Source: Pseudomonas fluorescens (lineage in GTDB: Bacteria; Pseudomonadota; Gammaproteobacteria; Pseudomonadales; Pseudomonadaceae). Taken from it: DNA of 64,000 nt. Made by a program: the position numbers and the translations under genes. The stretch's first letter is position 1, and each line of letters starts with the position of its first letter. The notes below the pieces were generated by a model, which worked only from the letters and a program-made list of their open reading frames with translations, had not been told where the DNA came from and ran no database searches. Below are positions 28,444 to 63,892 of the stretch, in pieces. The stretch covers positions 3,534,001-3,598,000 of the forward strand of contig NZ_CP015225.1 of the NCBI RefSeq assembly GCF_001623525.1, read 5' to 3'.

Positions 28444-30090
28444 CTATTTACCCAACCCCAAATTCGCCTCCGCCAGATCCAACTCCCCCAGCACCTCACG
28501 CAACACATCATCGCCAATCTGGTGGTGACGACTGAGGCGATACAACTCCAGCCGCTGTGCCCGAAAAGCCTTCAGGCGCAGCCGGCGCTCCAGCAGGTCC
28601 ATCTCGAATGCCAACGCCTGGGCCTCGGCGGAGTCGTTGAACACGTCCAACTGATGACGATACTCAGACATCAACCGCGCCTTGACCTCGGTCGCCAGCG
28701 CCGCCTGGGCTGCATCCGGTGTACTGGGCAGCTCAGCCGGCTCCTCCACTTCCAGCGCGCGGATCGCCGCTTCAGCGGTCTTGCGCCAGGCCTCGCGGAC
28801 TTCATTGCGCCGTTTGTCATCAGGGCTTTTTTCGATGCCCCGCAGCAACAATGGCAAGGCAATGCAGGCCGCAATCAGCGACAGCAGAATCACCCCGGCG
28901 GCGATGAAGATCAGCAGGTCCCGCTCGGGAAACGCCTCGCCCGCGCTCAGTAGCAATGGCACCGACAGCACGCCCGCCAGTGTCACCGCGCCGCGCACGC
29001 CACCGAAAGTCAGCAACCAGCAAGAACGTGCGGTCGGCACCGGGGTCAGTTCGCCCTGGCCACGCCAGCGTCGCAACAGCCCGGACAGGCGCCAGATGCT
29101 TTGCACCCAGACAAACCGCAGCACCAACAACACCAGGAAAATCGCCAGCACATCCAGGCAACGGTAGAACAACGTCGGCCAGAGCGTGGTTTCGAGGCGG
29201 GTCACCGCCTTGATGATGTCCGGCAGCTGCAAGCCCAGCAGCAGGAAGATCAAGCCATTGAAGGCAAACTCCAACAGCGACCAGACACTGCGATTGAGCA
29301 GCCGCGTGCCGGTCTGGCGCGGCAGCAGGTCGAGCCAGCTCTGCATCATCCCCGCTGCCACCGCCGAGAGAATCCCCGAGGCGCCCAAGCGCTCAGCCAG
29401 CACATAGGCCGCGAACGGCAGCAGCAACATGAACACCACATGGGTAGCCGGGTCGTCCCAGCCCCGGGCAATCATCCAGGCCCGCAGCCGCCCCAACAAC
29501 CAGCTCAAGGCCACGCCGACCAACAGGCCGCCAACCGCCACCAGCACGAATGTCAGGCTCGCGCCCGCCAGGGAAAATACCCCGGTGATAGCCGCCGCCA
29601 AGGCGAACTTGAAGGTCACCAGGCCCGACGCATCGTTCGTCAGCGCCTCGCCCTGGAGCATGTGCATCAGCGGCCCGGGCAAACGGTCCCGGGCAATCGC
29701 CGACACCGCCACCGCATCGGTCGGCGACAGCACCGCAGCCAGGGCGAAGGCCACCGGCAACGGGATACTCGGCAGCAGCCAATGAATGAAATAACCGGCG
29801 CCCACCACGGTAAACAACACCAGCCCCACCGCCAGCGTCAGGATCGGCCCGCGCAAGCGCCAAAACTCGCGCTTGGGCATCCGCCAGCCGTCGGAGAACA
29901 GCAACGGTGGCAGGAAGAGAAACAGGAACAGTTCGGGATCGAGGGCCACGTGCAAGCCCAGGGACGGCCAGGCCAGCAGCGCACCCGCGCCGATCTGCAC
30001 CAGGGGCAACGGTAATGGCACCAACCGTCCGAGCAGGCGCGAAACGCCCACCAGCATCAACAGGATCAGGACGGTATAGGCGCTTTGCAT
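28444..30090 (-). CDS. CPA1-family Na+/H+ antiporter (NhaP-like)
   Basis: Inner-membrane sodium/proton exchanger of the monovalent cation:proton antiporter-1 family. The 548-residue product begins with membrane segments (MQSAYTVLILLMLVGVSRLL) and has roughly 11-12 helices, including the family motifs FLFLPPLLFSDGWR, AALSPTDAVAVSAIA-like VLSPTDAVAVSAI and EALTNDASGLVTFKFA, which carry the transport carboxylates. A soluble tail of about 150 residues follows the last helix (after LPLLLRGIEKSPDD). The start is set at the ATG 30090 by the first membrane helix. The P. aeruginosa counterpart also lies near dapC. Confidence 0.88.
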   Translation of the reverse strand: MQSAYTVLILLMLVGVSRLLGRLVPLPLPLVQIGAGALLAWPSLGLHVALDPELFLFLFLPPLLFSDGWRMPKREFWRLRGPILTLAVGLVLFTVVGAGYFIHWLLPSIPLPVAFALAAVLSPTDAVAVSAIARDRLPGPLMHMLQGEALTNDASGLVTFKFALAAAITGVFSLAGASLTFVLVAVGGLLVGVALSWLLGRLRAWMIARGWDDPATHVVFMLLLPFAAYVLAERLGASGILSAVAAGMMQSWLDLLPRQTGTRLLNRSVWSLLEFAFNGLIFLLLGLQLPDIIKAVTRLETTLWPTLFYRCLDVLAIFLVLLVLRFVWVQSIWRLSGLLRRWRGQGELTPVPTARSCWLLTFGGVRGAVTLAGVLSVPLLLSAGEAFPERDLLIFIAAGVILLSLIAACIALPLLLRGIEKSPDDKRRNEVREAWRKTAEAAIRALEVEEPAELPSTPDAAQAALATEVKARLMSEYRHQLDVFNDSAEAQALAFEMDLLERRLRLKAFRAQRLELYRLSRHHQIGDDVLREVLGELDLAEANLGLGK

Positions 30091-54936: not shown

Positions 54937-57567
54937 TTAGCCGGTATTGCGCAAACCGGCGGCAATCCCCGCCACAGACACCAGCAACGCCTGTTCCACG
55001 GGGCTGCCCTGGGCCACATCCTGCTGCCGTGAGCGCGCCAACAGTTCGGCCTGCAACAGGTGCAGAGGGTCGAGGTAAGTGTTGCGCAGGCGAATGAATT
55101 CCAGCGTGGCTGGGCTATGTGCCAGTAGCTGCGACTGACCGGTCAACCCAAGGACCACCGAGCAGGCCTGCGACAATAGGTCGCGTAAATGCGCACCCAA
55201 AGGCAGCAGCCCAGGTTCCACCAAACGCTCGTCGTAGGAGCGGGCAATGTCGGCGTCGGCCTTGGCCAGCACCATCTCCAGCATGTCGATGCGGGTCCGG
55301 AAGAACGGCCATTGCTCGCGCATTTGCCCCAGCAACTCGCCTTCGCCACGCTCCAGGGCCTTGCTCAGTGCGGTTTCCCAGCCGAGCCAGGCCGGCAGCA
55401 TCAGGCGGGTCTGGGTCCAACCGAAGATCCACGGGATCGCCCGCAGGCTTTCGATGCCACCGGCCCGACGCTTGGCCGGACGGCTGCCCAGGGGCAGGCG
55501 CCCCAGCTCCTGCTCGGGGGTGGACTGGCGGAAGTACTCGACAAATTGCGGGTTTTCCCGCACCACGGCGCGGTAGGCACGGACGCCATCGGCCGCCAGT
55601 TCGTCCATCAGGTCCCGCCACTGCGGCGTGGGCGGCGGCGGTGGCAGCAGCGTCGCTTCGAGCACGGCGGCGAGATAAAGGTTGAGGTTCTGTTCGGCGA
55701 TGTCCGGCAGACCGAATTTGAAACGAATCATTTCGCCCTGCTCGGTGGTGCGGAAACGCCCGGCCACCGAACCCGGTGGCTGGGACAGGATCGCCGCGTG
55801 CGCCGGACCACCACCACGGCCCACGGTGCCGCCGCGACCATGGAACAACAGCAGTTCGACTTGCTGCTCGCGGCAGATGTCCACCAGCCGCTCCTGGGCC
55901 CGATACTGCGCCCAGGCCGCCGCAGTGGTCCCGGCATCCTTGGCCGAATCGGAATAGCCGATCATCACTTCCTGAGGGCCTTGCAACCGCGAGCGATAAC
56001 CGGGCAGCAGCAACAAGCGCTCGATCACCGGCCCGGCGTTGTCCAGGTCGGCCAGTGTCTCGAACAGCGGCACCACGCGCATTGGCCGCAACACGCCGGC
56101 GTCCTTCAACAACAGCTGCACCGCGAGGACATCGGAAGCCGCACCGGCCATGGAGATCACGTAGGAACCCAGGGACGCCGCTGGCGCCGCGGCCACTTCC
56201 CGGCACGTCGCCAAGACTTCCGCCGTATCGGCCGATGGCTTGAAATGGGCCGGCAGCAGCGGACGCCGGTTGCTCAGTTCCGCCAGCAAGAAGCTGATGC
56301 GCTGCTCCTCGTTCCAATCCTCATAGCGCCCCAGACCCAGGTAGTCGGTTATTTCCGTCATGGCGGCGGTATGGCGCGTCGAGTCCTGGCGCACATCGAG
56401 GCGCACCAGAAACAGGCCGAAGGTCACCGCCCGGCGCAGGCAATCGAGCAGCGGCGCGTCGGCAATCACGCCCATGCCGCATTCGTGCAACGAGTGGTAG
56501 CACAGCTCCAGGGGGTCCAGCAGCTCGCGGTTGTGCTGTAACACGTCGGCGCTTGGCGGCGTGGCGGCACTCAAGGAGGCGTGGGCCCAGTTGCGGGTGG
56601 CGCGCAGGCGTTCACGCAATTGCTTGAGCACGGCGCGATAAGGTTCGGCGCTGTCGCCGGCCTGGGCACGCAAGGCCTCGCTGGCGTGTTGCATGGACAA
56701 TTCGGCCGCCAGTTGATCGACATCACGCAGGTACAGGTCCGCCGCCATCCACCGCGCCAGCAACAGCACCTCGCGGGTCACGGCAGCGGTGACATTCGGG
56801 TTGCCGTCACGGTCGCCGCCCATCCACGAGGCAAAACGGATTGGCGCGGCCTCCAGCGGCAGGCGCAAGCCGGTCGCGGCATGCAGGGCCTGGTCGGCCT
56901 TGCGCAGGTAATTGGGAATGGCCTGCCACAACGAGTGCTCGATCACCGCGAATCCCCACTTGGCCTCGTCCACCGGGGTCGGCCGGGTGCGGCGGATTTC
57001 TTCGGTGTGCCAGGCTTCGGCGATCAAGCGTTGCAGGCGTTCGTGAATCTGCGCGCGCTCGGCGCTGGTCAGGTCGCGGTGATCCTGGGCCGCCAGTTGC
57101 GCGGCGATGGCGTCATATTTCTGGATCAGCGTACGGCGAGCCACTTCCGTGGGGTGGGCCGTGAGGACCAATTCGATCTCCAGCCGCCCCAATTGCCGGG
57201 CCAGGGCCTCGGCGCCATGGCCTTCGGCCCGCAACCGGGCGAGCAGCTCGGGCAACACCCGCGCCTCGAAGGGTTCCGGCTGCGATTCTTCGCGGCGGTG
57301 GATAAGTTGGTATTGCTCGGCGATATTGGCCAGGTTGAGAAACTGGTTGAACGCCCGCGCCACCGGCAACAGTTCGTCCTCGCTCAACTGGTTGAGGCTG
57401 GCGCTGAGTTCGGCGTCCACGGAACCGCGTCGGTCAGCCTTGGCGCCCTTGCGGATCTGCTCGATCTTGTCGAGAAACGCATCCCCGTATTGTTCGCGGA
57501 TGGTGTTGCCCAATAACTCACCCAGCAGGTGAACGTCTTCGCGCAAGCGTGCATCGATATCGGTCAT
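54937..57567 (-). CDS. ppc: phosphoenolpyruvate carboxylase
   Basis: Anaplerotic carboxylation of PEP to oxaloacetate. The 876-residue product has the catalytic-His motif [14 protein letters not shown], the second signature [36 protein letters not shown] and the C-terminal LRNTG, where the terminal Gly binds the aspartate inhibitor. The start [15 protein letters not shown] at 57567 is taken; an ATG two codons earlier is possible. The space to adk (54646-54936) carries the adk promoter region and no clear gene. Confidence 0.97.
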
Positions 57568-57746
57568 CAGCATTTCTCCAGCAAAAAGTCCGGACAGCTC
57601 TTGGATTAGAGAGTGCCGATGCCCACCGTTTCTGACAAGCGACGAAGGGACTTTAAACCTTGCAGGACAAAGCTAGTCTCATGATTAAGCCACACAACGG
57701 CTTGTCACTCACCGCGCCTGCCACGAGCAGGCTTATTGAGGTCATC

Positions 57747-58055
57747 ATGAAAATTCGTGAGCTTGCCCAGCATTGGGAAGAAAACGCCAAGGGCCGTCTG
57801 ACCGAGACTGGCTACACGATTCACCTGGACGTGGAAGCCGCCGCCCGGCTGGCAGCAATCTGCGACATGTACCCCAAGCGCCAGCCCGAGGAGCTGCTCG
57901 GCGAGCTGATCGGAGCGGCACTGGAAGAGCTGGAAGCCAGCTTCCCCTACATCAAGGGCTCGCAAGTCGTCGCCACCGATGAAGAAGGCGACCCGCTGTA
58001 CGAAGAAAGCGAGCACGCAATAGGAAAAACTCAATATCTCTTGAAAGCCGCGTAG
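57747..58055 (+). CDS. small conserved protein (PA3688-like)
   Basis: 102-residue cytoplasmic protein beginning MKIRELAQHWEENAKGRLTE, conserved next to ppc in Pseudomonas (from memory, like P. aeruginosa PA3688, sometimes called a pilus tip component without clear grounds). The middle VEAAARLAAICDMYPKRQPE and the helix LIGAALEELEASFPYIKG resemble a ribbon-helix-helix-like or small helical fold. The start is placed at 57747 because upstream codons to 57660 do not look coding. A divergent paralogue follows at 58144. Confidence 0.8.
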   Translation: MKIRELAQHWEENAKGRLTETGYTIHLDVEAAARLAAICDMYPKRQPEELLGELIGAALEELEASFPYIKGSQVVATDEEGDPLYEESEHAIGKTQYLLKAA

Positions 58056-58143
58056 AACATGGCTTCGCGATCATTTCAGAGAACAATGAGTGATAAAGAC
58101 AGTCCTAGATTTACGACACATGTAGCCACGCCGGAGATACCCC

Positions 58144-58464
58144 ATGGACACCTTCAAAACGATGCTCAGCAACTGGGAAAACAAAGCTCACGAAACCTCG
58201 AAGCTTGTTGAAATCACCCTGACCATTCGCCAACAAGACCTAGTGAAAATCAAGGCGTTTGCGGAAGCCTATGGACTAGATCAAAGCATCATCACGGAAG
58301 GTCTGATTCACTCTGCTATAAAAGAAGCGGAAACAGCCATGCCCTACGTCAAAGGGACTGAGGTGATCCGAGTGGAGGAAGGTGAAGAGATTTTTGCCGA
58401 CGCTGGTAAGACACCTGCCTACGTCGAAGCTGAACAAGCAATTTCAAAGACCCTACGGGGATAG
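58144..58464 (+). CDS. divergent paralogue of the preceding small protein
   Basis: 106 residues, alignable with the product of 57747-58055 across its length. Matching points are W-E-N-K-A near the start, I-x-A-F-A-E-A-Y-G versus I-C-D-M-Y-P, and the shared AMPYVKGTEVIRVEEGEE versus SFPYIKGSQVVATDEEGD region. The sequence is more AT-rich than its neighbour, hinting at a different origin. Its stop codon lies inside the terminator stem that follows. Function unknown. Confidence 0.75.
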   Translation: MDTFKTMLSNWENKAHETSKLVEITLTIRQQDLVKIKAFAEAYGLDQSIITEGLIHSAIKEAETAMPYVKGTEVIRVEEGEEIFADAGKTPAYVEAEQAISKTLRG

Positions 58465-58471
58465 GGTCTTT
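58446..58471 (+). terminator. terminator overlapping the end of the 106-residue gene
   Basis: AAAGACCCTA (58446-58455) and TAGGGTCTTT (58462-58471) form a perfect 10-bp stem with a 6-base loop. The stop codon TAG (58462-58464) is in the right arm. It lies between convergent genes and can act in both directions. Confidence 0.7.
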
Positions 58472-58498
58472 GAGACGGAACACTAGCCTCGCAAGGGG

Positions 58499-60271
58499 CT
58501 ATTCAACCTTACCTTGGCGAGAGAGTATTTCCTTTTCAATCTGTGCATAAAGCTTTTCGTAACCTTGAAATTTACTCATTCTGGCTTTATTTAGCAGAGA
58601 GCCTTCGCACATTTTCATTAGGCAACGGTACATCTTGAAAAAAATATCATGATAACCATCCTGAATATCTTTATCAGGAGAACTAACCTGACCGCATTTC
58701 AAGCACATCCGCACAAGGTTTGTAAAATTATAATCATCTAAGCTTGAAAAATATTTTAAGAATTCAGCTTCTGTTTTTTTGGCAACGCTATTTCTAACAT
58801 CAGTATTCTCAAAACCAGAAACGTTATAAGCGTAGTTTATAAGGTCAGGCAGACTCTTTTCTATCACCAGACCATCAAAGTATTCTTCAAGCTTCTGTTG
58901 AATATAGGCATTCGCGGGCCAGCGAAAAACATCATTTTTTTCACGCATATCACTGGGTGCAACAACTTCATTAAAATACCTATCTATGTCGCTATTTATT
59001 TTATCGACCCGTCCTAAATCATAATAGATAGAAGCAACCGAATCTAAATCATTTATTGAGAAATTAACCAAAGCCACATCTATAGCCAAATCAAATGCGG
59101 CAAAAACCTCATCATCATTTTTTGAAAAAGAAGCATGAAAGACATTCCAAGCTCTCTGTAACAAAGCAATATCTTGATCATGCTTAATTTTAGCTTCCAA
59201 CGAGGTAACTAGATCTAGCATTGACTGATCGTCAGCATAACCCTTTCTAACTAAATTTATGATCGCAACGTCAAATTCATCAATGGAACTTAATCCATAA
59301 TCTTGCAGATATTCAATCTTAAGGTCTAGTTCAGCGAGTAATTTTATTTCTTCTGGTGACCGATCATCATCAGGCATACGATAACCAGATAAGCTACCTT
59401 GATAAGTCAACAGAAAATCAATATCTACGCCAGCCGAATTCCCGCCATAGATTGTAAGAACAGCAAGAGGCAGGGTTCTATAAGCCTGCTGCTGCACAAG
59501 CTCATTACAACCATTCAGCCGCTCATCCAGAAGACCTGCAAAATAATCAATCTTTTTGAGCAAACGAACATTGTTTATTTTCAGTTTAATGGCGTTATCC
59601 GATACTATCTTACGTGCTTCCCCTGATGAATTAAAAACTAAAGAGGCAGACTCTTGCACTGACGGACTAAAAACAATCTCATAATCGAAAACTTTTTCAC
59701 TGTATGTGAAAAACTCATCATCCGGCTTTAGTGACCCTTCATTTAAAATCAAGATGACCGAGCAATTCTTTTTCTCGATCAAATTTGACACCAATCCTAA
59801 TACATCCCGTGCAGATAAAGAATTACCGCGACGTTCAAAATCGTCGATACATATTATTGTTTCTGTTACCAGAGAGTATTGAATTGAATCAATAACTCCG
59901 CCAAAACTCCCTACATAAGGAATTTTTGCTTCTCTTCCATAGCCAAAGATTTTTCTTAAACCTACAACCCCATCACTGAAATCAAGCTTCTTGATATTTT
60001 CGACAACAGAGTTTTTGGTAGTGACAACACCGGCACTTTTGCTAGGAACAGAATTATCAAAAATTGAACGCTTCAAGTCAGCTAGCGAATTGATACCGAA
60101 AAGTGAAACGTAAGAATAGTTGACGCGAGCAAAATTAAGTCGATGCTTCTCAATCACAGAGTTCCAGAGATAGGTTTTTCCGGTTCCCCACTCCCCTTTC
60201 AAGACAATTGCTGAACCCATTCTTTTAACAGCGAAATCATGCAGTGCTTTTTCAACTTGAATGACAGACAT
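58499..60271 (-). CDS. KAP-family P-loop NTPase, third gene of a putative defence operon
   Basis: 590-residue NTPase. Walker A is LKGEWGTGKT (GxxxxGKT at residues 26-33), Walker B is IICIDDFERR (D143, D144) and a sensor-like Asn is in VILILNEGS. This layout fits KAP/AAA-type STAND-like NTPases; no membrane helices are obvious, unlike classical KAP proteins. The C-terminal 380 residues are helical with no domain I recognise. The codon choice is AT-rich, unlike the flanking core genes. The ATG shares a base with the stop of the PD-(D/E)XK gene (TGATG). A defence role is inferred from the context; the family alone does not prove it. Confidence 0.85.
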   Translation of the reverse strand: MSVIQVEKALHDFAVKRMGSAIVLKGEWGTGKTYLWNSVIEKHRLNFARVNYSYVSLFGINSLADLKRSIFDNSVPSKSAGVVTTKNSVVENIKKLDFSDGVVGLRKIFGYGREAKIPYVGSFGGVIDSIQYSLVTETIICIDDFERRGNSLSARDVLGLVSNLIEKKNCSVILILNEGSLKPDDEFFTYSEKVFDYEIVFSPSVQESASLVFNSSGEARKIVSDNAIKLKINNVRLLKKIDYFAGLLDERLNGCNELVQQQAYRTLPLAVLTIYGGNSAGVDIDFLLTYQGSLSGYRMPDDDRSPEEIKLLAELDLKIEYLQDYGLSSIDEFDVAIINLVRKGYADDQSMLDLVTSLEAKIKHDQDIALLQRAWNVFHASFSKNDDEVFAAFDLAIDVALVNFSINDLDSVASIYYDLGRVDKINSDIDRYFNEVVAPSDMREKNDVFRWPANAYIQQKLEEYFDGLVIEKSLPDLINYAYNVSGFENTDVRNSVAKKTEAEFLKYFSSLDDYNFTNLVRMCLKCGQVSSPDKDIQDGYHDIFFKMYRCLMKMCEGSLLNKARMSKFQGYEKLYAQIEKEILSRQGKVE

Positions 60272-61269
60272 CAGTTTATCCCTTGAGCTTTATCATCATC
60301 CTTTATGAAATCAGGATATTTTTGTGGCTGTTGAATAAAAATGTATTTAACAAGTTTTTGACGAAGAGCTTCGTCCAACGCACTTTGAAAATTCGAAATG
60401 GAGTGAAGGGGCGATTCATCAACGAGCAAAGATCGCCAATGAATATTATTTTCAGCATCAGACTTTTTCAGCCTCAATAAAGTTTGTATTGCCCTATGTG
60501 CGACATTACCAACCCCGGCTCGCACAGTAAAACTTTGCCTAATAATTTCATCGTCAATTTCTGAACTCTCATCAAGCTCGCAGGTATTTAATATCGAAAG
60601 CGTCCTTGGCGAAAACGTGTAATTTTTGTCCCCATTGTAATCCTGCAAATAGATGTCTTCTATCCTAGTTTTCCACGTCTCTGTATCACCATTACTTTCA
60701 TGAATTTCATCTTTGCGGAATTTCAGGTGAAGCCCCACGCCATCACCTAGCTGGTAATGCATATCACCGGCTAGCAGACTCATCAAACTATTCGACAAAG
60801 CTGAAAAGAAATTCACACGATAGTTTTTATTAAATCTCTCAAATAGAGAAATATCGAAAAGCGTCCAAATACTGTGACGCTTCCAAGCGAACAATATCGG
60901 TATACCCAACAACTCACTATACTTGATTAGTTTTTCCCGATCTTTCGCTCTAAGAGTTAGGTTTTCATCCTGCTTAGTTTTTACTTCGATCAAAACTCTG
61001 TATTGACTATTATCCGTGTTGAAAACGGCCAACAAATCAGGAACCTGAAAGGTATCTTTAGAAGATTTCGGAATTTGTTGCTGATCCAATTTATGGACAA
61101 GCGAACATTTGCCGAGCCAGCTACAGATGACGGCGAATTCGTCCTCTGCAGGTAAACCGAGATCTAGACGTAGAACCCGCTGAACCACTTCATCAGCATT
61201 TTCCCACCCACACTGTTCAAGTGCCTCATGAAGAATTCGACTCCGATCCATCAGCACAAGCTCATCCAT
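60271..61269 (-). CDS. PD-(D/E)XK nuclease-like protein, second gene of a putative defence operon
   Basis: 332 residues. A PD-(D/E)XK-type active site is visible: PDLLAVFN (D78), then EVKTK (E95 and K97) on the next strand, with an acidic E42/E44 in an upstream helix and FAWKRHSIW further on. Such folds occur in restriction and DNA-repair nucleases. The rest (about 150-332) is not recognised. The start overlaps the end of the HNH-like gene by 8 bp and the stop overlaps the NTPase start by 1 bp. It is AT-rich like its partners. A DNA-cutting role is inferred. Confidence 0.8.
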   Translation of the reverse strand: MDELVLMDRSRILHEALEQCGWENADEVVQRVLRLDLGLPAEDEFAVICSWLGKCSLVHKLDQQQIPKSSKDTFQVPDLLAVFNTDNSQYRVLIEVKTKQDENLTLRAKDREKLIKYSELLGIPILFAWKRHSIWTLFDISLFERFNKNYRVNFFSALSNSLMSLLAGDMHYQLGDGVGLHLKFRKDEIHESNGDTETWKTRIEDIYLQDYNGDKNYTFSPRTLSILNTCELDESSEIDDEIIRQSFTVRAGVGNVAHRAIQTLLRLKKSDAENNIHWRSLLVDESPLHSISNFQSALDEALRQKLVKYIFIQQPQKYPDFIKDDDKAQGIN

Positions 61270-62917
61270 GTATCACGTCCTCATCATTACAGAGCATTGG
61301 CATTTCATCAGGTGCGATGGAGATTACAGAATCGCTAGACTGGTTAGCCCTTCCAACACACCATAATGATTGCCAGTCTTCTTCCCTTATACTTGAAAAG
61401 AAAACAATATCGAAACACGACACTTTTTTAGACATTCTAGGAAGCGTTATATTATTACCGAAGAAATCTATTGTTGGTGACTTGGCTATGGTTACCTCAG
61501 GCTCGTTTTCGGAGCAAAAAGTTTTGATGGCCTTACTTTCTTTAGCATCAACACGAGCAGTGAAAATATTCTCGCCATAATCGAGCTTGCGAATGACATC
61601 ACCTTTGAAAAGCTGGGCGTAAAGTTCGATATATCGCTCATCCTGCTGCGTCAAGTCTAGGGTTTTCAATCTGAGCTGCTCAGGGATTTTCGAGGCAATA
61701 ATTCTGGAGCACTCAGCAACCTCTACTATTTTTTTCAATCGACCAAAAATTTCAGTGTAGTCACCATACGTCCCATCCCAAAGACGCATAGGTTCACCGT
61801 TAAAAACAATTTCAACCGAAATCCTAGACTTCGGATATTTTACAACGAAGTCATAGGCTCTTTTAATACGGTGATAATGCCTTAAATTATTGAACGGTTG
61901 TCCTAACCAACCAGCAACGTCGAACGTGTAGGTTGCGTCTACTTTATAGCGGTCATGAATGAAATACCGATAAGTCAAAAATCCGTCTAAAGCAGAACCT
62001 TCAATATCAAATTGTTTTGAACCCTTACCCATGAATGACTCAGTAGCAGCCAGCTCAAATTCTGCTTCATCACTGACAAAATAGATGCACGTTTCAAGTC
62101 GTCTTTTTCCGGGAGTGAGCGTTAGCACCCCCCCAACAATAACCTCATTCAGATGTTCAAATAGTTTCGACCCAACAAACTTGAAATCCTTTGTAGGTAT
62201 GTGAATCGGCTCACCCACTTCAGTCATGTTTTGCCATGCCTGATCAGCAGAAGCATTGGCTTCATCATCATTAAAAACTATCTGAATTTCTGGTGCAGGG
62301 TCAGTGATCGGAATCAGCTCATGCACGACAGAACCGCTTGTAGCAGTGACTACAACCTTAAAGTTTGGATCAATGCTATTTATTGATTGTTCATAGCCTT
62401 CAACGACCGCCGAGACGTCGAAATTTCCCGGACTACCTGCCTTCGTAATCAGGGATATGGTTGCTTCGATAATCCCCGCACGAATTTTGTTTTCAGCCTC
62501 AAATGGTGCCATCGGAATCACACCAACCAGCGAAGAAACGTAGGATTGATGAACGGCCTTCATCTCTTTCAAATGAGCGACAGTGTGAAACGTTTCTTCG
62601 TTGTCGATTAGCTTGGAGCACGAATAGCACATCCAAATACCGTTATCGAAATGTCGTCTTTGGGCTTTTGTCTGATTTGGGTCATACCGTTTGGCACCCG
62701 GCCCGCTCGCAGCAGCACAAATATGTGCAGCGACACCGATACTATTTTTCCTGTCACCCGCATCCGTTGAGCCAATCGTGAAGACACGACAACGAGAACA
62801 GAGGTTCGCGGCCCTCACAAGCAACTCAATCTTTGTCGTTTCAGAAAAGTCGTCACGGGTGCTCACGCTGGCCCCTTCTTCAACAACCCTTGTTGCTTTG
62901 TTCTTCCGTGGTGCCAT
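61262..62917 (-). CDS. HNH-like zinc-domain protein, first gene of a putative defence operon
   Basis: 551 residues. The N-terminal 115 residues form an HNH-type zinc module: CSRC (C40, C43), AAHICAA (H65), RYDPNQTKAQRRHF, NGIW (N92) and CYSC (C97, C100), a pattern used by many bacterial HNH-like domains that sit on top of other sensor or effector domains. Residues 120-551 are unrecognised, with strand-rich stretches (TFDVAGWLGQPFNNL, SRISVEIVFNGEPMRLWDGT). It is the first gene of the operon, with a candidate promoter just upstream. Its AT-rich sequence suggests transfer. Nuclease activity needs proof. Confidence 0.8.
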   Translation of the reverse strand: MAPRKNKATRVVEEGASVSTRDDFSETTKIELLVRAANLCSRCRVFTIGSTDAGDRKNSIGVAAHICAAASGPGAKRYDPNQTKAQRRHFDNGIWMCYSCSKLIDNEETFHTVAHLKEMKAVHQSYVSSLVGVIPMAPFEAENKIRAGIIEATISLITKAGSPGNFDVSAVVEGYEQSINSIDPNFKVVVTATSGSVVHELIPITDPAPEIQIVFNDDEANASADQAWQNMTEVGEPIHIPTKDFKFVGSKLFEHLNEVIVGGVLTLTPGKRRLETCIYFVSDEAEFELAATESFMGKGSKQFDIEGSALDGFLTYRYFIHDRYKVDATYTFDVAGWLGQPFNNLRHYHRIKRAYDFVVKYPKSRISVEIVFNGEPMRLWDGTYGDYTEIFGRLKKIVEVAECSRIIASKIPEQLRLKTLDLTQQDERYIELYAQLFKGDVIRKLDYGENIFTARVDAKESKAIKTFCSENEPEVTIAKSPTIDFFGNNITLPRMSKKVSCFDIVFFSSIREEDWQSLWCVGRANQSSDSVISIAPDEMPMLCNDEDVIHG

Positions 62918-62948
62918 CGTGCGTAACTCGCCATCGTGTGAGCGGAAT

Positions 62949-62989
62949 CCTGTACAGGCGTTTTAACATCGAACGCTTGGGCACACCAA
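62949..62989 (-). promoter_or_regulatory. candidate promoter and palindrome for the three-gene operon
   Basis: On the minus strand TTGGTG (62989-62984) and TTAAAA (62966-62961) are 17 bases apart. A 10-bp palindrome CCTGTACAGG (62949-62958) lies just downstream of the -10, where a repressor could bind. The start codon is 32 bases further on. The match to consensus is only moderate. Confidence 0.35.
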
Positions 62990-63335
62990 GAAATGGTGCT
63001 GGGATCGACACCCGAAAACGACCACAACCCAAGACAGAATTGGGCTACGCTGAGCTGTGCTGGCTTACCTCGACCGCAAAATTTTCCTTCGTAGTCCCGC
63101 TTTCCGAAGACGTAGGTCCGACCCCACGCTTCCTCGCCTTGTCCCGGCGGCATCTGCACGACCTTTCTTCGCAGAACGACAAATCCAAACACTGACCGCT
63201 TTCATTCCTGGTTGCGACTTTCCGGCGCGGGGGCTTTCCACCCGCGCCGCAATACCGCTGCGCGCCTTGAAAGTTCAGCTTTTTTGCCGCTGACCGATCA
63301 GTCAGTAATTCTTTTGGCGAATGGCCATCTTCGCT

Positions 63336-63478: not shown

Positions 63479-63892
63479 ATGGAGTTGAAGCCTATGAATA
63501 CCTGCACTGCCAAACCCTCATCCACTGGCCTGCGCGGCTTGAAGTTGGCTGCCCTGGCGATCGGTAGCAGCTTCATTCTCGCCGGTTGCGCCGGTAATCC
63601 ACCTTCGGAGCAGTACGCGGTGACCCAATCGGCGGTCAACAGCGCCGTCAGCGCCGGCGGTACCGAATTCGCTGCTGTGGAAATGAAATCGGCCCAGGAC
63701 AAACTCAAGCAGGCGGAAATCGCCATGCATGACAAGAAGTACGACGAAGCCAAGCGTCTGGCCGAACAGGCCGAGTGGGACGCCCGCGTCGCCGAGCGCA
63801 AGGCTCAGGCCGCCAAGGCCGAACAAGCACTCAAGGATTCTCAGAAAGGGGTTCAGGAACTGCGTCAGGAAGGCATGAACAAGGTTCAGTAA
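63479..63892 (+). CDS. DUF4398 lipoprotein (PA3691-like)
   Basis: 137-residue precursor. The hydrophobic signal LAALAIGSSFILAGC ends in lipobox LAGC (Cys37). The mature part is a long charged helix with Ala/Lys/Glu-rich heptads (EMKSAQDKLKQAEIAMHDKK, WDARVAERKAQAAKAEQALK), typical of DUF4398 proteins. The start ATG at 63479 has AGGAG 7 bases upstream; an ATG at 63494 is also possible. It is followed by an OmpA-like lipoprotein gene, as at the P. aeruginosa PA3691-PA3692 locus. Confidence 0.88.
   Translation: MELKPMNTCTAKPSSTGLRGLKLAALAIGSSFILAGCAGNPPSEQYAVTQSAVNSAVSAGGTEFAAVEMKSAQDKLKQAEIAMHDKKYDEAKRLAEQAEWDARVAERKAQAAKAEQALKDSQKGVQELRQEGMNKVQ

Follow-up and report, generated by a model that had tools for sequence, protein, structure and literature searches.

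Immunity that couples a nucleoside triphosphatase (NTPase) to a nuclease is a common theme. The Qat system comprises the KAP-type protein QatA together with QatB, QatC and QatD, KAP proteins of the Tmn type have membrane-spanning segments, and a paper on Tmn (PMC11846954) reportedly mentions the KAP family NTPase together with phage defence. Here, we analyse a 64,000-nucleotide stretch of the Pseudomonas fluorescens contig NZ_CP015225.1 (the window), in which three overlapping genes (the trio) encode an HNH protein, a Hjc-like PD-(D/E)XK nuclease and a KAP P-loop NTPase. We propose, with confidence barely above even, that these genes were acquired horizontally and together make up a composite anti-phage (anti-foreign-DNA) cassette, in which KAP would serve as a switch, with a recognition region that can be exchanged, and license two nucleases.

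The gene set carries no name in PADLOC 2.0.0, NCBIfam, Pfam or the open-access full text searched, in agreement with the original prediction, which had recognised no named system; a newer or subscription paper could name it. The best PADLOC labels are candidates only, PDC-S49 for the KAP protein and PDC-M68A for the HNH protein, and the nuclease has no match. At E<=1 the KAP protein matches PDC-S49 models only (E 6e-24), the best stretch spanning residues 18-227 of 590, with the C-terminal two thirds outside it; PDC-S49 is moreover a single-gene model, whereas the cassette KAP gene lies in an operon with nuclease genes. The PDC-M68A match of the HNH protein (E 8.4e-17) covers the HNH domain alone, and PDC-M68B, the DUF2326 protein that accompanies it in PDC-M68, has no match in the cassette. 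With Qat, the cassette has a KAP-superfamily NTPase in common, but this protein gives no QatA match, and QatB, QatC and QatD are absent among the genes adjacent to the cassette (ppc, orfX, orf106 and a DUF4398 lipoprotein gene), so that Qat was rejected. A Tmn-type or other membrane KAP was ruled out by the lack of a membrane-spanning stretch in a simple hydropathy test, the top 19-residue Kyte-Doolittle mean being 1.58. The PD-(D/E)XK nuclease of SPARDA may be likened to that of the cassette, but there is no Argonaute match in the trio, on which ground SPARDA was dismissed, and none among the adjacent genes. Finally, gene 1 has the HNH domain type of Cap5, the HNH-SAVED effector of CBASS (structure and mechanism in PMC8568899), but Cap5 chains align with the HNH model over residues 22-133 only, and the third histidine of the motif is serine or alanine in the gene 1 family. 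CBASS was set aside since no CD-NTase (cyclase) was matched among the trio and the open reading frames at 57660-58055, 58144-58464 and 63479-63892, the only ones scanned.

In their available portions, PMC12839542, PMC10952713 and PMC7159879 do not mention KAP, and the Pseudomonas hotspot papers PMC10250203 and PMC12629846 contain neither ppc, phosphoenolpyruvate nor KAP; PA3687 is likewise absent from the available text of PMC10250203. According to that text, low-GC defence genes occupy the P. aeruginosa hotspots cDHS1 and cDHS2, which are fixed in position between core genes, and probably move via conserved flanks. The cassette is likewise low in GC and placed at a fixed position between core genes, but its site is a small one, without an insert in 53 of 59 sampled genomes.

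Anatomy and recurrence of the cassette

All three genes lie on the minus strand and overlap by 8 and 1 bp, confirming the arrangement originally read from the sequence, and their GC content is 40%, compared to 60% for the window. They are:

61262 to 62917, minus strand: gene 1, HNH protein of 551 amino acids, with a Cap5-like HNH domain (about residues 22-133) and a C-terminal region of about 400 residues
60271 to 61269, minus strand: gene 2, Hjc-like PD-(D/E)XK nuclease of 332 amino acids (P77-D78, E95, K97)
58499 to 60271, minus strand: gene 3, KAP P-loop NTPase of 590 amino acids, with an NTPase part (about residues 1-200) and an exchangeable C-terminal region (about 200-590)

The domain calls of the original prediction were borne out. 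The HNH domain of gene 1 is of the Cap5 type, with H65 and N92 present in 26/26 aligned sequences. The nuclease belongs to the Hjc branch of the PD-(D/E)XK superfamily as judged by a PF01870 score above cut-off, the Hjc fold and the D...ExK pattern; it scores 27.1 bits against the cut-off of 70 for the Holliday junction resolvase Hjc equivalog (NCBIfam NF040854), and the Hjc chains listed have about 110-130 amino acids compared to its 332. The KAP protein reaches 30.2 bits against PF07693 (gathering score 20), and its Walker A and Walker B motifs are invariant in 25/25 sequences. The C-terminal parts of the HNH and nuclease models have no convincing PDB match, which does not in itself establish new folds, and the HNH model has no match among viral structures at E<=0.001. 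Purifying selection acts on the cassette genes, the ratio of non-synonymous to synonymous substitution rates (dN/dS) being 0.06-0.16 in 14/18 pairs; the remaining pairs are saturated.

The distribution was determined through profile searches of 398 Pseudomonas genomes and a separate nuclease-alignment scan of named genomes. The HNH profile matches 34/398 genomes, 15 over most of its length and 19 essentially in the HNH domain, and the KAP profile 20/398. At least two of the genes are adjacent in seven distinct loci: the window, L003, L004, G227 (L005), G358 (L006), G359 and G030 (L140), five of which (the window, L003, L004, G227 and G359) have all three. The named-genome scan returned 58 nuclease loci, four of the trio branch, all from Pseudomonas (L003-L006), and 54 stand-alone. 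Flanking DNA of at least 5 kb was available to either side in 32 of the stand-alone loci; across all 54, HNH or KAP relatives are found nearby only in L032 (Rhizobium plasmid pRL10), with a KAP relative 5.6 kb from the nuclease. In the trio branch, a KAP gene adjoins the nuclease in 6/6 loci (the window, L003, L004, G227, G358 and G359) and an HNH gene in 5/6. Full-length HNH genes stand alone in 11 examined loci (L120-L130), and KAP genes lack the other two in 14 (L141-L145, L148, L149 and, distantly related, L152-L158); nine of the 19 HNH-domain-only genomes (L131-L139) fall outside this classification, and the KAP locus L159 (G122) was dropped as it had no gene match. Several members of the three protein-database family lists also agree in the length of their longest contig, which would be consistent with co-occurrence. 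The recurrence anticipated for the trio thus stands insofar as its genes occur together in seven loci, with all three in five; as a fixed unit it does not, given G358/L006 and G030/L140.

Phage carriage of the exact cassette was rejected, as its DNA has no match in 50,697 phage records and the viral-contig relatives are distant, at most 39% identical for the nuclease, 36% for KAP, 29% for the one near-full-length HNH relative and 49% for the HNH domain alone. Plasmid relatives are all below 60% identity. E. coli plasmid records of about 110 kb occur among the matches of both families, at 27% identity for the KAP relative and, over 136 residues, 40% for the HNH-domain protein; the two may lie on the same records. 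Elsewhere, a KAP relative adjoins genes for phage lysis, Rz and a chitinase-like one (L148:8872-11649), and a nuclease relative a phage portal gene (L030:8792-10969); given these neighbours, the KAP and nuclease families may also travel in prophages.

Exchange of modules between loci

The C-terminal two thirds of the KAP protein are exchanged independently of the P-loop part. The L003 and L004 proteins are 95% identical in residues 1-200 and 46% beyond, while L003 and P0049 show 49% identity up to residue 200 and 65% beyond. Trees agree with this pattern: L003 groups with L004 and P0033 for residues 1-200 (support 96/87), and with P0049 beyond residue 200 (99/100), where L004 and P0033 join the window group (87/97). 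Over 406 pairs, mean identity is 55.8% in the N-terminal and 34.0% in the C-terminal part, with a correlation of 0.56.

Identities to the window differ correspondingly between genes. L003 has 86% for HNH, 90% for the nuclease and 44% for KAP, and L004 88, 92 and 54%. In L005, the values are 89% for the N-terminal and 68% for the C-terminal part of HNH, 74% for the nuclease and 59% for KAP; in L006, the nuclease is 74% identical, and KAP 81% in residues 1-190 and 42% in residues 190-575. L140 has 32% for HNH and 62% for KAP. The ends of the HNH protein recombine too, as P0295 combines foreign first 150 residues with a window-like remainder and P0299 has the opposite arrangement.

The insertion site

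The seven distinct loci found to carry two or more adjacent trio genes, from several Pseudomonas species, all share a single site, inside the 3' end of the small gene orfX, between ppc and the DUF4398 lipoprotein gene. The orientation is the same in 7/7, with the HNH end towards the lipoprotein and the KAP end towards orf106, orfX and ppc; for G227, G358 and G030, each split over two contigs, continuity is deduced from matching ends. In the window, the surrounding features are:

54937 to 57573, minus strand: ppc (phosphoenolpyruvate carboxylase), core gene of the left flank, assigned through the PF00311 match of the L140 homologue
57747 to 58055, plus strand: orfX, resident gene with its 3' end replaced by the insert (ends ...LYEESEHAIGKTQYLLKAA), listed as an open reading frame of 131 amino acids from 57660
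58007 to 63095: insert containing orf106 and the trio, about 5.09 kb when compared to the close relative G039 (L188), in which the site is empty
58144 to 58464, plus strand: orf106, small paralogue of the interrupted orfX, within the insert and convergent with the KAP gene
63096 to 63195, plus strand: detached original 3' end of orfX (SEDVGPTPRFLALSRRHLHDLSSQNDKSKH)
63479 to 63892, plus strand: DUF4398 lipoprotein gene, core gene of the right flank

We searched the ppc and lipoprotein flanks in 59 Pseudomonas genomes and read the gaps between them by hand. The site is empty, with both flanks on one contig, in 53/59, the gap being 0.27-1.65 kb (in G043, which has two lipoprotein copies, measured to the nearer) compared to 5.9 kb in the window; among the other sampled genomes, G030 is split, and G014, G021, G041 and G042 lack a lipoprotein copy near ppc. 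The orfX gene is uninterrupted, ending ...LYEDVGPTPRFLALSRRHLH..., in three close relatives (G039, G010 and G035, with ppc at 96-99% identity) and in G046 and G058; in all five, window base 58006 is followed by the equivalent of 63096-63097. The AT-rich, acquired character that had been suspected is supported.

Replacement of the orfX tail and a remnant of the original are both found in 7/7 site loci. Occupied loci encode ...(L/V)YEESEH(A/T)IGK... (window, L003, L004, L140, L147 and G227) or ...VYEDVEPAIGK... (G358), and the original tail ED(V/I/A)GPTPRF... is left beside the lipoprotein gene in the window, L003, L004, L005, L006, L147 and L195. With its C-terminus replaced by the insert, the orfX protein of the host would be altered.

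The window junctions carry an imperfect 15-bp direct repeat, 13/15 on our reading of the sequences and also seen as an overlap of the two BLAST pieces. At the orfX-side end, a 20-mer is identical in the window, L003, L004, L140 and L147 despite differing surrounding orfX coding sequence; it is single in its own genome, absent from viral contigs and not found in the site loci L151 and L194. No recombinase gene is apparent among the listed open reading frames of the insert. A transposon was considered but not adopted, given the 20-mer missing from L151 and L194, the variable other end, the lack of an apparent recombinase and the lack of convincing terminal repeats; exchange through the conserved flanks is our simplest guess for how the insert moves.

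The orfX paralogue orf106 has a similar new tail. It is found at 66-96% identity in six other site loci (L003, L004, L140, L147, L151 and L194) and at E<=1e-15 in 9/219 genomes, seven of which (those besides the window and G030) show no trio-gene match in the stretch examined. It directly adjoins the lipoprotein gene in L207, L209 and L210, and in L211 lies beside orfX and other genes, three without a PADLOC match and two without a Pfam match. We also weighed, and discarded, orf106 as a marker for further cargo at the site. In the 25 stand-alone HNH and KAP loci (mostly 8-9 kb on each side), ppc, the lipoprotein, orfX, orf106 and the nuclease have no match.

Defence context and competing readings

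Neighbours of the stand-alone relatives were compared with PADLOC at E<=1e-10 using 80 proteins from 10/11 HNH loci (L126 omitted as a near-copy of L125), 56 from the seven closest of the 14 KAP loci, 136 from 34/54 nuclease loci and, as a control that is not a random draw, 120 from nine loci beside the ppc site. The family counts of the neighbour sets and the control (85, 7, 154 and 7) are inflated by related models. Among the matches listed, HNH neighbours include three defence-type reverse transcriptases, and nuclease neighbours a SIR2-type Argonaute-associated protein, Argonaute, AbiE, PD-T7-1, a Lit-like protease, a TIR protein and DrmC. KAP neighbours include both PD-Lambda-2 B and PD-Lambda-2 C, each with three members (the three loci taken as L143-L145 from gene sizes), and in L142 the KAP relative lies 177 bp from a PDC-M68B gene. 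The seven control families have one member each of the 120, the best being PDC-M72A (1.5e-24) and the others three MotB/ZorB models, one ankyrin and two phospholipase effector models. The suspected link to defence is supported to the extent that relatives of all three families lie near known defence genes; for the trio, the defence evidence is by family, the cassette having no other defence gene directly beside it.

Some of these stand-alone loci have an arrangement of their own. A distant HNH relative (26% identity) lies directly upstream of QatA-QatB-QatC (L121:4230-10114). In L041, L043, L044 (5233-7673) and L045, the gene directly abutting the downstream end of a stand-alone Hjc-like nuclease gene encodes 475-492 amino acids; its L044 version matches PD-T7-1 (7.6e-70), and the two genes may make up a defence unit. 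L141 (9011-12303) holds another, different candidate KAP operon, in which the gene of the KAP relative overlaps one of about 246 amino acids and this in turn one of about 270 (DUF7946 match).

The sequence itself shows the anatomy and recurrence of the cassette, its site, the exchange of modules, selection and the family context. For the individual families as well as for an acquired, shuffling cassette, defence is the reading that fits best. In such a composite cassette, the KAP protein would act as a nucleotide-dependent switch, with its exchangeable C-terminal region recognising an infection-specific signal. Recognition would lead KAP to license both nucleases, and these would degrade phage or cell DNA, both the DNA target and the antiviral effect being presumed; we infer that the three proteins act as one machine.

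Several observations weigh against this reading. The nuclease profile is sporadic (4/398 Pseudomonas genomes), and no gene pair is obligatory, as G358/L006 has the nuclease and KAP without HNH and G030/L140 HNH and KAP without the nuclease. The cassette is also lost, as seen from G359, degraded by stops in KAP and the nuclease and a split HNH gene, and from the internal stop in the nuclease of G227, where KAP is in addition cut by the contig end. There is no sign of tight co-adaptation, since HNH and nuclease at 86-92% identity to those of the window accompany KAP at 44% (L003) or 54% (L004). Nor do the immediate neighbours of the trio point to defence by association, since the adjacent ppc, orfX and lipoprotein genes are not defence genes. 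Finally, the canonical HNH nuclease motif consists of three residues, H, N and H, and the gene 1 family departs from it at the third, placed via 7rwk, with serine in 23/26 and alanine in 3/26 proteins; the NTPase-gated system with two nuclease modules, as originally envisaged and as we still infer it, would hence include a non-canonical HNH active site.

The principal rival, which we regard as a serious possibility well short of even, is that the operon merely brings together, at a permissive site, three single-gene defences that are each self-sufficient, with KAP acting as in candidate PDC-S49, the HNH protein as a stand-alone effector and the Hjc-like protein as a stand-alone nuclease. Each family indeed occurs alone (HNH in 11 and KAP in 14 examined loci, the nuclease in 54/58, including L032 with its KAP relative 5.6 kb away), which partly bears out the objection raised in advance that homologues might occur singly; stand-alone relatives lie near defence genes, and exchange affects KAP but leaves HNH and nuclease in place. 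Joint action is favoured by the 8- and 1-bp overlaps and by the trio nuclease branch, not seen without KAP in any of its six loci. The Holliday-junction resolvase fold of the nuclease would also suit a cassette without an immune role, such as a Hjc-like resolvase plus NTPase, which would serve DNA repair, recombination or its own selfish maintenance and persist at a safe site. We consider this improbable, as the sporadic distribution of nuclease and KAP, the low GC, the module exchange and the defence neighbours of relatives fit immunity better, and the nuclease stays below the Hjc equivalog cut-off. Least probable is a known system under another name (Qat, CBASS, SPARDA or Tmn): despite the likenesses to these systems, PADLOC gives PDC-S49 only for KAP, nothing for the nuclease and a domain-only match for HNH, KAP lacks a membrane span, and the neighbours are ppc, orfX, orf106 and the lipoprotein gene.

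More tentatively, and with some doubt, the cassette may be viewed as a polymorphic, fixed-address, three-part immune locus, which would change specificity by domain swapping and not by acquiring new systems. The parts swapped would be the C-terminal recognition domain in KAP and both the nuclease end and the C-terminal end in the HNH effector. Recombination might then occur at one insertion point, rewriting the end of a core gene, a notion we likewise put forward with reserve. The natural strains are ready chimaeras, with HNH and nuclease at 86-92% identity to those of the window beside KAP proteins with exchanged P-loop or C-terminal parts, so that which part of an immune NTPase recognises phage becomes directly testable. 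The interval between ppc and the DUF4398 lipoprotein gene is, in addition, a small and precisely bounded place to seek further Pseudomonas defence genes.

Elsewhere in the window, positions 29001-30000 show strong AT skew (0.443) in a stretch of otherwise ordinary, high-GC sequence.

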